A program made the translations under genes and the position numbers. From contig PBOD01000050.1 of NCBI GenBank assembly GCA_002724215.1, positions 29,114 through 64,456 on the forward strand: DNA of 35,343 bases, given 5' to 3'. Positions within the stretch are counted from its first letter, which is position 1; each line of letters starts with the position of its first letter. This DNA is from Gemmatimonadota bacterium. GTDB lineage: Bacteria > Latescibacterota > UBA2968 > UBA8231. Below, in pieces: positions 9,153 through 16,452 of this stretch. A model generated the notes under the pieces. It made no database searches and had not been told where the DNA came from. It saw nothing but the letters and a program-made list of their open reading frames with translations.

Positions 9153-10214
9153 CTACTTGATCGCCACCTCCCTGCCCTTCTCGGCAGACTGGTAAATCCC
9201 GTCGAGCATCTTCTGCACCATCAACCCATGGTCGCCCGGCGCCATGGTCGGCTGGCCGTAGAGCACGTGGTCAACGAAGTTGCGCATCTTTCTGGCAAAG
9301 GCATTGGCTTCGGGCCCACTGGGCAGCCAATCGGGCTTGGTGCTAACCATGTGGTCGTTGGCATCGTGGACCAATGCCGTCGGTTGCCAGGTCGCCCCGC
9401 CCTTCTCGCCCATCAGCGTGAAGTTCCACTGGTCCTCGGTATGCGCCGCGAAGCTGGCCTCGATGCTCAGCGTCGCCCCGTTGTCAAAGCGGATCTGTCC
9501 CACCGCCAGGTCTTCGACCGTATAGCTCTTGTGATCCCAGTCTGGCCACTGCGACAACACGTTCGACTTCTTGTCGCCGATATAGGTATAGGTACTACCG
9601 CTAGCCGCCACCGGCTTGGGCGAGCCCATCACGTAGTGCGTGGCTTCAAGGACGTGGACGCCGATATCGATCAGCGGTCCGCCGCCCTGCAAATCCTTGC
9701 GCCCGAATACACCCCAGTTGGGAATCCCGCGCCGGCGCAACGCCTGCACCCGCCCGTACAATATTTTGCCCAATTCCCCGTTGTCGACCGCCTTCTTGAT
9801 AAATTGCGTGCGCGGCTCGTAGCGATGCTGGAAGCCAATGACCAGCTTTTTGCGGTTCTTCCTCGCCGCATCGAGCATTTTCTGCCCCTCGCGCGCGCTC
9901 ATTGCCAGAGGTTTCTCGACGATCACGTGCGCCCCGGCATTCAATGCCGCAATGCTACAGGGCGCGTGCAGACCGTTGGGCGTGCAGACGCTGACCGCGT
10001 CGGGCTTGACCTGCTTGAGCATCTTCTTGTAATCGGGATACGCCTCGGGGATCTCGTATTCCTCGCAGCGGCGCTGAACGCTCGCAGCGACCAGGTCCGA
10101 AGCCGCTACCATTTCGACATCCTCCATATCTTTGTAATAGCCCATGTGCGTCCCGGCAATCCCGCCTGCCCCGATAAAGGCGACGCGTAACTTGTCCTCT
10201 TTCCGCTTAGCCAT
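9153..10214 (-). CDS. Gfo/Idh/MocA family NAD(P)-dependent oxidoreductase
   Basis: A 353-residue cytoplasmic dehydrogenase. The N-terminal Rossmann fold has GAGGIAG at residues 15-21; the family EKP motif is at 100-102, and the substrate-domain block GGGPLIDIGVH supplies Asp183 and His187, which line the active site in this family. Members oxidise or reduce sugars, inositols and related polyols. The ATG at 10214 has GGAG 5 nt upstream. The terminator of the upstream DUF6807 gene lies between the two, so this gene and the PhyH gene after it probably form their own transcript, although I found no convincing promoter in 10215-10286. Confidence 0.93.
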   Translation of the reverse strand: MAKRKEDKLRVAFIGAGGIAGTHMGYYKDMEDVEMVAASDLVAASVQRRCEEYEIPEAYPDYKKMLKQVKPDAVSVCTPNGLHAPCSIAALNAGAHVIVEKPLAMSAREGQKMLDAARKNRKKLVIGFQHRYEPRTQFIKKAVDNGELGKILYGRVQALRRRGIPNWGVFGRKDLQGGGPLIDIGVHVLEATHYVMGSPKPVAASGSTYTYIGDKKSNVLSQWPDWDHKSYTVEDLAVGQIRFDNGATLSIEASFAAHTEDQWNFTLMGEKGGATWQPTALVHDANDHMVSTKPDWLPSGPEANAFARKMRNFVDHVLYGQPTMAPGDHGLMVQKMLDGIYQSAEKGREVAIK

Positions 10215-10336: not shown

Positions 10337-11239
10337 CTAGCTCGCCTGGAACGCGTCGATCAGCGCCCGCACTCCCTCGTGCCCATCGACGCCGCGCCCG
10401 GGGTGGATGACCAACCGGTAGCGGAACACCGCCTTGTCGCCGTCGGGAATCGTCAAACTCTCGTCGATCTCCGCGTCGCCCTTGAAGTCGTGAACCCCAA
10501 AGGCATTGGCGGTAAACAGCCCGTAGCCGCGCACGTGCCAATACGTCGGGTACCGCGGGTTATCCTTGTGATCGACGACCGTGTGCCCCCATTGCTCCCC
10601 ATTGGCCAAAGGCCCCGAATAATCGACCCACGCCGCCTGCACGCCCCAGGTCGTCTCCTCGCCCTCCCCGTTTTCGAACACCTGCCCCGCCGAGTTCTCG
10701 ATCCGCCCCTTGTCCTTGGCGTCCATGGAGGTCGGCACCCGAATCGAAAACAACCCACCCTCCTTGGTGTCGCCAAAGGTCACGTCGCCGTAGTTGGCGC
10801 GAAACTCGCTGCGCTGGTCGATAATCCGCAAATCCCCCTCTACCCGAATAGAAATCGTCCGCCGCTCCTCCAGCAACTTCTCCCCCTCGGGGCCGTACCA
10901 ATCGACCATCCCGTCGATCTCCGCCGCGTCGCCATGCACCCCCACCACCGGTTCACCGCGCTGCAGCATCGCCCCGTGCCCGGTCCCCTCATCCCACAAA
11001 TTCTCGCCATTGACCAGCCCGTGCGCGGTATAGATCCCGCGGTGATGATAGTGGTCCTGGGTCTCCCCCTCCACTTCCTCCATCGGATAGGCCCGCGTCA
11101 AACCCTGTCCACCGGCTGTCAACACCGGATAGAAATAGGGCCGACACACATAGTGCCCATAGCGGTACTCGGTAAAAAGCTGGCCGTCTATAGTGACGAC
11201 GGCCTTATTGTCCTCGGATTGCAACTTGATATCAATCAT
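10337..11239 (-). CDS. DUF6807 (PmoA-like) family protein
   Basis: A 300-residue single-domain protein matching the family called DUF6807 or PmoA (not the methane monooxygenase subunit itself). Recognisable blocks are RPYFYPVL near residue 33, the histidine-rich DHYHHRGIY near 62, and NPRYPTYWHVRGYGLFTANAFG near 240 in the C-terminal half. There is no signal peptide or membrane segment. Biochemical function is not established; family members commonly sit beside Gfo/Idh oxidoreductases and sugar catabolism genes, as here. The ATG at 11239 follows an AGAGG. The gene is followed by a terminator, and upstream lies the nested inverted-repeat element at 11281-11412. Confidence 0.85.
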   Translation of the reverse strand: MIDIKLQSEDNKAVVTIDGQLFTEYRYGHYVCRPYFYPVLTAGGQGLTRAYPMEEVEGETQDHYHHRGIYTAHGLVNGENLWDEGTGHGAMLQRGEPVVGVHGDAAEIDGMVDWYGPEGEKLLEERRTISIRVEGDLRIIDQRSEFRANYGDVTFGDTKEGGLFSIRVPTSMDAKDKGRIENSAGQVFENGEGEETTWGVQAAWVDYSGPLANGEQWGHTVVDHKDNPRYPTYWHVRGYGLFTANAFGVHDFKGDAEIDESLTIPDGDKAVFRYRLVIHPGRGVDGHEGVRALIDAFQAS

Positions 11240-11280
11240 TATTCCCTCTCTTCTCCTTCTATAGGCTGATAGTTCCCAGA

Positions 11281-11412
11281 GGTTGGGTCGAGGGGAGAAT
11301 TCGTAGCGGTTGTGGCTCCGATTTCACAGGCTGTGAAATCGGTAAAGCCACCCCTCGGAGCGAGACAGGAACCGAGCGAGAATGAGCGAAGAGTCCTCCC
11401 CTCGACCTAACC
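11281..11412. repeat. 132-bp element of nested inverted repeats
   Basis: The outer arms GGTTGGGTCGAGGGGA (11281-11296) and TCCCCTCGACCTAACC (11397-11412) pair over 16 bp with one G·T position. Inside, GTGGCT (11312-11317) pairs with AGCCAC (11346-11351), and directly within that CCGATTTCACAG (11318-11329) pairs perfectly with CTGTGAAATCGG (11331-11342) around one central base. A third, short arm pair (CTCGG/CCGAG) lies in 11354-11376 amid repeated GAGCGA words. The layout looks like a three-way-junction RNA or a MITE-like element. No target-site duplication or gene was seen, and it fills most of the 198-nt gap between two minus-strand genes. Confidence 0.6.
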
Positions 11413-11437
11413 GCCCATCCTTGTCAGCACTACCCCC

Positions 11438-12781
11438 TCACACCGCCACTCCACAACACCGCTTGTACTTCTTCCCGCTCCCGCACGGACACGGATCATT
11501 CCGCCCCGGATCCTTCTTGCCGACCGCCGCCCTCACCGCATCTCGCTGCCGCGCCCACTCCATTACGCCCGTCGCCGGCCGCCCATGCCGCAATTCATCG
11601 GCCATAAAGCGCATATAGGGATCGACGTGCGCGAAGTACCGCTTGTAGCCCTTGCACAGATAATTGAGCCCGTCCTCGCCGCTCGGCGTCCGGTTGAATC
11701 GGTGCTTGGGACACCCCCCGTTGCAAGCGAAGCGAAAATCGCACTCGACGCAGTACTGCGGCAAAAGATCCTTCTTGTCCTGCCCGAACTTCTCCTGCTG
11801 CGGGCTGGCGACCATATCGCGAATACTCTCCTCGTGCACATTGCCGAGGCGGTAGTCAGAATAGACGAAGTGGTCGCACGAGTAGAGATCGCCGTTGTGC
11901 TCGATAATCAGCGCCGAGCCGCAAGTCTCGGCAAAAATGCACAAACTCGCGTCCTGCCCCAGCCACGAGCCCAGCGTCACGTCGAACATCTGCACGAAGA
12001 CCTCGCCGACGTCGTTGCGGACCCATTCGTCGAAGATTTTGCAGAGAAATTTGCCGTATTGCCCCGGCCCCACCGACCACCGCGCCACCGGCGCCTTGCC
12101 GTCGTAATCGGGATCGACCAGTTCCAGGCCGTCCTCATCTACCTCGTCGGCGATGCGCTCGACGATGGGAATAAACTGCATAAAGCTCGAGCCCTCGTCG
12201 CGCAGAAAACGGTAGATCTCAAGCGGGTGATCGGCATTGTGGTGCTGCAGCACGGTGAGGGTATTGAATTCGACCTGGTGCTTCTTAAGCATCTGCAAGC
12301 CGGCGTAGACCCGGTCGTAGGTCGGTTTCTGGCCCTTGTCGACGCGGTAGCGATCGTGGAATTCGCGCGGACCGTCGATCGACAGCCCGACCAGGAACTG
12401 GTGCGCGTGCAAGAACTCGCCCCAATCGTCGTCGAGCAGGATGCCATTGGTCTGGAAGGCGTTGGTGATGGCTTTGCCGTCGGCGTAGTGCTGCTGCAAC
12501 TCGACCGCGCGGCGGAAAAAATCCAGGCCCATCAGCGTCGGCTCGCCGCCCTGCCAGGCGAAGTTGACCTGCGGCACGTCCTGCGCCTCGATATACTGCT
12601 TGACGTAGAGTTCGAGCGTATCCTCGGCCATGCGCCAGTTTTTGCGCGCGTCTGGGTAGAGCCTCTCCTTCTCTAAGTAGAAGCAGTATTTACAGTCGAT
12701 ATTGCAGACCGAGCCCGAGGGCTTGGCCATCACGTGGCAGGCAGCAGGCTCTGCTGTTGGGGTCGATGTAGTTGCTTCCAT
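11438..12781 (-). CDS. Radical SAM anaerobic sulfatase-maturase-like enzyme with SPASM domain and SEC-C tail
   Basis: A 447-residue radical SAM enzyme of the anSME type. The [4Fe-4S]/SAM motif CX3CX2C is Cys26, Cys30 and Cys33 (CNIDCKYC). WQGGEPTL and LSIDGP follow, as in anSMEs. The second half has the SPASM auxiliary-cluster cysteines (SCDHF, YCVECDFRFACNGGC, YLCKGY). The last 20 or so residues form a SEC-C zinc motif (DPCPCGSGKKYKRCC). Known anSMEs convert a sulfatase Cys or Ser to formylglycine in the cytoplasm; no sulfatase is encoded in this window, so the client must lie elsewhere, or the enzyme modifies something else. It has its own promoter and is divergent from the phosphoesterase gene. 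Confidence 0.92.
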   Translation of the reverse strand: MEATTSTPTAEPAACHVMAKPSGSVCNIDCKYCFYLEKERLYPDARKNWRMAEDTLELYVKQYIEAQDVPQVNFAWQGGEPTLMGLDFFRRAVELQQHYADGKAITNAFQTNGILLDDDWGEFLHAHQFLVGLSIDGPREFHDRYRVDKGQKPTYDRVYAGLQMLKKHQVEFNTLTVLQHHNADHPLEIYRFLRDEGSSFMQFIPIVERIADEVDEDGLELVDPDYDGKAPVARWSVGPGQYGKFLCKIFDEWVRNDVGEVFVQMFDVTLGSWLGQDASLCIFAETCGSALIIEHNGDLYSCDHFVYSDYRLGNVHEESIRDMVASPQQEKFGQDKKDLLPQYCVECDFRFACNGGCPKHRFNRTPSGEDGLNYLCKGYKRYFAHVDPYMRFMADELRHGRPATGVMEWARQRDAVRAAVGKKDPGRNDPCPCGSGKKYKRCCGVAV

Positions 12782-15642: not shown

Positions 15643-16452
15643 ATGCCCGAACTGCCCGAAGTGGAAACCGTCCGCGGCGCCATGCAGCGCCATCTCTCAG
15701 ACCAGCCCATCACCCACGTCCACGTCGGCGCCAAACCCCTGCGCGAGCCCCTGCCCGGCCCCGCGCTGCGCGCCCTTAGCGGCGACCGCTTTACCGCAGC
15801 ACGCCGCCGCGCCAAATTCCTGCTCCTCGACCTCGCCTCGGGCGGCACGCTGCTGGTCCACCTCGGCATGAGCGGCAATCTGCTATTCCGCACCCGCGGC
15901 GAAAAACACGATCACCTGGCCTTCGACTTTGCCGACGGCTCCACCCTGGTCTACAACGATCCGCGGCGCTTCGGCCTGGTGCTGGTGCTGCATTCCGCCG
16001 AAGCAGAGCGCGACTGTCGCTACCTGCGCCATCTCGGCCCCGAGCCCCTGTCCCGCGCCTTCAACGCCGCCTATCTCCAGGCCCGGTGCCACAGCCGCAA
16101 AACCCCGATAAAAATCGCTATCATGGACAATCCCGTAGTGGTCGGGGTCGGCAATATCTACGCCAGCGAGGCACTATTCGCCGCCGGCGTCCACCCGGCG
16201 ACCCCATCAGCCCAGGTCGCGCCGGAACAATTGTCGCAACTGGTCAAAGAAATCAAGAAGGTCCTGCGCGCAGCCATCAAAAAGGGCGGCACCACCATCA
16301 GCGACTACCGCGGCTCGGGCGACGGCGGGCGCTTCCAGCAGCAACTCAAGGTCTACGGCCGCGCCGGGACCGACTGCCGCGTCTGCCGAACGCCCATCGA
16401 AAACCTCTACCTCGGCGGCCGCAATACCTTCTACTGCCCGCGCTGCCAATAA
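15643..16452 (+). CDS. mutM: Formamidopyrimidine-DNA glycosylase (Fpg)
   Basis: A 269-residue base-excision repair enzyme that removes 8-oxoguanine and formamidopyrimidines and cleaves the abasic site. The mature N-terminus PELPEVE supplies the catalytic Pro and Glu. The conserved lysine lies in the RRAKFLL segment, the helix-two-turn-helix has VVGVGNIYASEALF, and the C-terminus is a zinc finger, CX2C-X16-CX2C. Length and motifs match the family throughout. The start must be this ATG because the Pro following it is the nucleophile. Promoter placement implies a leaderless or nearly leaderless mRNA. The stop overlaps the A-tract of the clpP terminator from the opposite strand. Confidence 0.97.
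   Translation: MPELPEVETVRGAMQRHLSDQPITHVHVGAKPLREPLPGPALRALSGDRFTAARRRAKFLLLDLASGGTLLVHLGMSGNLLFRTRGEKHDHLAFDFADGSTLVYNDPRRFGLVLVLHSAEAERDCRYLRHLGPEPLSRAFNAAYLQARCHSRKTPIKIAIMDNPVVVGVGNIYASEALFAAGVHPATPSAQVAPEQLSQLVKEIKKVLRAAIKKGGTTISDYRGSGDGGRFQQQLKVYGRAGTDCRVCRTPIENLYLGGRNTFYCPRCQ

Follow-up and report, generated by a model that had tools for sequence, protein, structure and literature searches.

An intergenic element of nested inverted repeats

The stretch of DNA analyzed here, hereafter the window, is 35,343 nucleotides long and belongs to a Latescibacterota draft genome of 5.85 Mb (G000, 266 contigs, 93% complete). At positions 11281 to 11412 of the window, between a DUF6807 gene and a radical-SAM gene that both lie on the minus strand, is a 132-bp intergenic stretch made up of nested inverted repeats, which, as an earlier note on this DNA had stated, no gene explains. 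The outer arms (11281-11296 and 11397-11412) are complementary save for one position, where G stands opposite T on the plus strand. The sequence thus bears out the claim of 16-bp arms with a single position that would read G·U in a plus-strand RNA and A·C in a minus-strand RNA. The outer pairing runs further inward, to arms of 22 nt. The inner stem is exactly as had been claimed, with 6 bp plus a perfect 12 bp and a 3-nt bulge; here GTGGCT and CCGATTTCACAG (11312-11329) face CTGTGAAATCGG, TAA, and AGCCAC (11331-11351). The third short arm pair that the note had placed amid repeated words was located as CTCGG/CCGAG, amid two GAGCGAGA words. For simplicity, the outer, inner, and third helices are referred to as P1, P2, and P3 (Table 1).

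The predicted folding energy of the 132 bp is -72.2 kcal/mol for the plus strand and -67.3 kcal/mol for the minus strand (z = -7.84 and -7.72, respectively), and none of 200 dinucleotide-preserving shuffles was equally stable. No Rfam family matched the 132-bp element at the gathering threshold, with chance matches only (E 0.35-1.3). Function as an intrinsic terminator was rejected, as neither end has a T-run.

Across the family of copies described below, P1 (20-23 bp) encloses, in order, GTAGCGG, P2 with its 3-nt asymmetric bulge, CCCTCGGAG, P3, and GAGAATGAGCGAAG. Conserved ends adjoin the outer stem, ACCGRAGG on the left and CCGTCCACC on the right. The P2 loop of the window copy is CACAGGCTGTG, and the family form is ACAGGATGT. 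In copies of both gene orientations, a pyrimidine-rich tract precedes P1, 30-60 nt to its left.

Table 1. Features of the element and its surroundings (positions in the window)
Feature	Position	Strand	Evidence
Neighboring DUF6807 gene; start codon ~42 bp from the stem	10337-11239	-	PF14100, E 7.8e-65
Pyrimidine-rich tract; probably belongs to the mobile unit (left side)	11242-11261	+	T/C-rich, G-poor
Left end motif; family ACCGRA before GG, here CCCAGA	11275-11280	+	positional conservation, ~90 copies
P1 (outer stem), 5' arm; sequence specific to the locus	11281-11302	+	covaries
Junction strand GTAGCGG, conserved	11303-11309	+	near-invariant alignment columns
Helix P2; GTGGCT + CCGATTTCACAG / CTGTGAAATCGG + TAA bulge + AGCCAC	11312-11351	+	
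Junction strand CCCTCGGAG, conserved	11352-11360	+	near-invariant alignment columns
Helix P3 region; degenerate in the window copy, loop CAGGA	11360-11377	+	P3 covaries family-wide; AGGA loop kept
Junction strand GAGAATGAGCG, conserved	11378-11388	+	exact copies counted in genome
Outer stem P1, 3' arm	11391-11412	+	pairs with 11281-11302
Right end motif; family CCGTCCA, here CCGCCCA	11411-11417	+	positional conservation, ~90 copies
Neighboring radical SAM/SPASM/SEC-C gene; stop codon ~26 bp from the stem	11438-12781	-	PF04055, PF13186, PF02810

A dispersed, lineage-restricted family

When the element was searched against the DNA of G000, 36 other places were found, and the conserved junction strand GAGAATGAGCG occurs there in 53 exact copies as compared to none for a reversed control pattern. 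Together with the fold z scores, these counts rule out a single-copy or chance palindrome. All copies were then called with one covariance model, built from 30 copies of G000. The model finds 71 copies in G000 and 75 and 99 copies in two congeners (G005 and G006); most of the genomes compared are drafts, and these three are 84-93% complete. The density of copies is one per 60-80 kb. In each of eight genomes from other genera of the same family, 1-13 copies were called; eight further congeners and 35 genomes from outside the family gave none. Among named records, the nearest are Latescibacterota or 'Gemmatimonadetes' metagenome-assembled genomes, and our literature search returned nothing relevant on repeats in Latescibacteria. 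Two pattern matches fell in viral contigs, neither convincing as an element, and carriage by phage was rejected.

Several single loci stand apart. Three copies in the same orientation, spaced by ~1.2-1.3 kb, occupy 2.7 kb of G000 contig C104 (L234, 7436-10087). The element at L022 (472-654) has ~40 extra bp within the 3' junction strand. At the start of G000 contig C35 (L032, 1-145) lies a fold-back palindrome that probably reflects misassembly at an element. At L194, L196, and L197, GAGAATGAGCG is present with no full element.

Compensatory change in three helices

The earlier note had proposed that a covariance-model search would separate a MITE, expected as many dispersed copies, from a structured RNA, expected to show compensatory changes. 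The search returned both, and massively so for the latter. The covariation score is 0.497 (0.147 in shuffles; 0.05-0.15 when partners are slid), and changes on both sides were found in 34 of 44 base pairs. The stems vary freely yet stay paired in all three helices, and the unpaired junction strands are nearly invariant; the three-way junction that had been suggested is therefore real. Between genomes, the flanks are homologous for about a dozen pairs of copies. Ten comparisons at such orthologous sites gave 149 changed pairs, among them 83 full compensations, 24 one-sided changes to G·U, and 29 one-sided breaks. With 71 copies in G000 and covarying helices, neither of the outcomes that would have dismissed the structure, a single copy or unconserved pairing, was observed.

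A helix selected as RNA should contain far more G·U than A·C on the transcribed strand. In an alignment that scores G·T and A·C alike, P1 of 85 copies contains 1756 Watson-Crick pairs, 72 G·T, and 53 A·C. The single G·U/A·C position from which a plus-strand RNA had been argued is thus not representative of the family. Over all three helices, the count is 235 G·U to 173 A·C in model-fitted alignments, which favor G·U, and in P3 the A·C mispairs outnumber G·T. Splitting the mispairs by gene context revealed no clear strand preference. The neighboring genes, called by a simple codon score, occur in all combinations of orientation (-|- 40, -|+ 29, +|+ 28, and +|- 13), and no promoter or terminator was found at a fixed position relative to the element. 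Because A·C is nearly as common as G·T, gene orientations are mixed, and no promoter or terminator is fixed, an RNA read from one strand is not supported, and the element is not an RNA in any simple way.

The outer stem belongs to the locus and the core is exchanged

Within a genome, P1 identity is 0.65 between copies whose cores match at 95% or more and 0.59 for core identities of 75-80%, as compared to 0.49 for shuffled arms. Orthologous copies, in contrast, keep P1, with identities of 0.93, 0.81, and 0.86 at core identities of 0.91, 0.90, and 0.87, respectively. Two exceptions among the orthologues, both at a core identity of 0.80, are L080/L206 (P1 0.58) and L019/L198 (P1 0.53). Since P1 differs between paralogues with near-identical cores and is kept in orthologues, the core is swapped between copies or freshly inserted, and the outer stem is either left behind or rebuilt. 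Mosaic copies, in which the outer half GGGTCGAGGGG is common to copies with different cores, fit recombination between copies. Insertion into pre-existing hairpins was rejected as the source of P1, as no pool of empty P1-like hairpins was found in 790 kb.

The suggestion of a MITE-like repeat holds in that many dispersed copies exist and fails for the classical form. Conservation in a classical MITE is found in the terminal repeats. The present family shows the opposite pattern: its core is conserved and its outermost stem varies most (P1 identity between copies ~0.6; shuffled arms give 0.49).

Three copies carry inverted segments. In L040, inverted copying of a junction strand has produced a perfect 20-bp palindrome, and in L036 and L200 the tip of the P2 hairpin reads as its reverse complement. 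Intrastrand template switching within a hairpin, known from quasipalindrome mutagenesis, leaves such inverted copies, and the L040 palindrome and the flipped tips are the footprints expected of it.

Gain, loss, and inversion of copies

The window site is empty in seven relatives, in which some 13-15 bp separate the same two genes and the pyrimidine-rich tract is missing from this short gap. Other empty sites are shorter by about 180-200 bp. Because of this length, the end motifs, and the pyrimidine tract on the left, the real unit exceeds 132 bp and is about 200 bp including the tract and end motifs. One copy in G005 lacks only the P2 hairpin, another lacks the whole interior, and another is half lost. 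Several G006 sites are empty in G000, one of them with a left-end footprint. One site (L076/L067) holds the element in inverted orientation between flanks that are ~95% identical, and another is common to different genera (L044/L207/L050). These empty, partly deleted, and inverted sites show that copies are gained, lost, and flipped. The intergenic flanks of empty sites are too diverged for an exact reading of the junctions, in which no target-site duplication was found. No autonomous copy was seen.

In relatives, at L090 (5254-5369) and L095 (3635-3760), a shortened element follows the DUF6807 gene, in the intergenic gap next to the one that holds the insertion in the window.

Orientation follows strand composition

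The flanks of the element are G-poor on the model strand regardless of gene direction. Over 5 kb on each side, GC skew on the model strand is negative for 47 of 51 copies with 20-kb windows (p 2.4e-10 by a sign test in which orthologous copies across genomes are counted though they are not independent), including 25/26 in G000 and 22/25 in G006. With 1.5-kb flanks, the model strand is G-poor for 86 of 96 copies, and it is still so for 23 of the 24 that have both genes on the C-rich (model) strand. In other genera, 16 of 22 copies fit and the skews are weak. In a complete element-free congener, the skew is roughly two-armed but weak, with ~17 of 20 sampled windows fitting. One of only four copies against the skew is at 15695 (-) of L240 (G000 contig C175), 5.5 kb from a copy of opposite orientation at 10076 (+).

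Replication polarity is preferred over transcription because orientation tracks strand composition whatever the gene direction. If strand composition is taken as a proxy for replication direction, the copies are most simply explained as oriented with replication, the strand complementary to the model strand presumably lying on the lagging-strand template. The near-uniform orientation probably arises as the element copies or folds during chromosome replication.

Interpretation and rival explanations

Our current hypothesis, in which we place about even confidence, is that the element belongs to a family of non-autonomous palindromic DNA repeats restricted to this lineage. Such repeats would most likely act and spread at the replication fork in the form of a folded single strand, by means of some enzyme, much as IS200/IS605 and REP elements do, so that movement would be by single-strand transposition. 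Complementarity of the arms may be maintained by DNA-level copying of one arm onto the other, through template switching in the hairpin, together with selection. A fuller version is more tentative: the conserved folded core would move or convert between loci, each locus would keep its own perfectly paired 21-bp stem through arm-from-arm copying at the fork, and the whole would be recognized by a lineage-specific protein. Several observations count against a DNA repeat. Neither a Y1 transposase/RAYT (PF01797) nor a reverse transcriptase (PF00078) was found in G000, G005, or G006, and the latter result also led us to reject a group II intron or retroelement. In the single complete congener that was sampled, GC skew is weak and resolves only roughly into two arms. 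Neither a target-site duplication nor an autonomous copy was found, and the conservation of junction and loop bases at old orthologous sites suggests some role besides mobility.

The main rival, which we consider unlikely, is a CsrA/RsmA-binding RNA module, in which the plus strand would be transcribed and one CsrA dimer would bridge both loops, either regulating the adjacent gene or titrating CsrA together with other copies. The P2 and P3 loops (4-6 nt) keep AGGA or AGGGA across genera (ACAGGATGT, CCAGGGATGG) while their closing pairs change, and GGA, a feature of CsrA sites, is in the loop of P2 in 60/75 copies and of P3 in 67/75. These loops resemble known CsrA sites, for which the SELEX consensus is RUACARGGAUGU, the hexaloop ANGGAN, and the CsrB repeat CAGGA(U/A/C)G (PMC7652899). 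In a first search, csrA was present in 4/6 element-bearing and 0/20 element-free genomes; the association weakened when nine more genomes were followed up, to 7/11 element-bearing and 2/14 element-free genomes of the family (Fisher p 0.017, uncorrected for kinship). However, G000, a 93% complete draft with 71 copies, contains no csrA and no DNA match to the flgL-fliW-csrA locus. Many copies, in the -|- context, would be antisense to both genes, no promoter or terminator has a fixed position, the preference for G·U is weak, and two P2 loops are flipped to TCC. If the AGGA loops do bind CsrA, CsrA sites would be dispersed genome-wide in a little-studied phylum. Some other structured non-coding RNA or cis-regulatory leader read from one strand is, in our estimate, distinctly improbable. 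Compensatory changes in three helices with invariant unpaired bases are its usual signature and the right end is often 20-35 nt before a start codon, but the mispairs are symmetric, the genes are oriented in all combinations, Rfam has no match, and polarity tracks strand composition and not transcription. We rate as about equally improbable a chromosomal signal that, like KOPS, Chi, or a primosome/primase loading hairpin, is polar and under selection for the way it points relative to replication. Such a signal would account for the orientation bias of ~90%, the fold kept at old sites, and the disappearance of every copy from eight congeners, which would fit the loss of a trans-acting factor; against it are a density of only one copy per 60-80 kb, the deletion or half deletion of single copies between close relatives, the inverted copy at one site, and the lack of a known partner protein.

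Strong covariation is normally taken as proof of a structured RNA. In this element it is joined with features that point to DNA, namely symmetric mispairs, strand-composition polarity, flipped loops, and copied arms. If the single-strand DNA reading is true, the family would be a natural counterexample, for which RNA covariation screens should control, and a natural system for studying palindrome arm copying at the replication fork.

Relation to known systems

The element is an undescribed variant of dispersed palindromic repeats. ERIC, BOX, and bcr1-type repeats are likewise imperfect palindromes of 100-200 bp dispersed near genes; compared by description only, we know of none among them with replication polarity or core-versus-stem exchange. 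REP/REPIN sequences and their RAYTs (IS200/IS605-like Y1) share with it dispersed intergenic palindromes at gene ends, long bulged hairpins, and, as proposed for the element, a folded single-strand substrate. REPINs show compensatory changes in the part between the REPs (PMC3116915), as this element does in its stems, and Y1 transposition is linked to the lagging strand (PMC6006769). Unlike REPs, the element is a three-helix unit of 132-200 bp and not of 20-40 bp, its outer stem is unique to each locus, and the copy-rich genomes have no Y1 transposase. The GTAG tag at the hairpin foot is not fixed (GTAG, GCAG, GGAG, or TGAG). Membership in the REP family was rejected on the variable tag, the unit of 132 bp or more, the only partly kept CGTC-like right end, and the absence of PF01797 in the genomes searched. 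CGTC-tagged palindromes (Di Nocera 2013, PMC3733652) likewise have no dedicated transposase known, and CGTC is found in the family consensus at the right end of the outer stem (CCGTCCA); their stems, however, are 8-9 bp of conserved sequence, whereas the element has an internal junction and a 21-bp stem whose sequence is free.

Integron attC sites likewise have a free stem sequence and function as a folded single strand, as is proposed for the element. The attC core sites GTTRRRY and RYYYAAC fit the window copy (GTTGGGT/ACCTAAC) but not other copies such as L010 (GTCGGGT/ACCCGAC), which excludes the assignment, and the element is not accompanied by cassette arrays. CsrB/RsmZ-type RNAs have similar hairpins with AGGA loops, whereas the element has two loops per copy, is scattered over the genome, and is present in G000 without csrA.

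Other repeated sequences were encountered near the element. A second dispersed repeat of ~190 bp (GTGCGTCTCACGCTGCGG...GCCACCTTAACGGGCAGCGGGAGTGGGGCGATA) is in the left flanks of L080, L219, L204, and L206, ~150-345 bp from the element; it has no Rfam match and is 77-87% identical between loci. A third repeated sequence (CTCCGGGCGTTTTTAGTCCCCCGGGCCGTCGCCCC...), likewise without an Rfam match and probably structured, is in the left flanks of L207, L090, and L213, where it is 71-79% identical.
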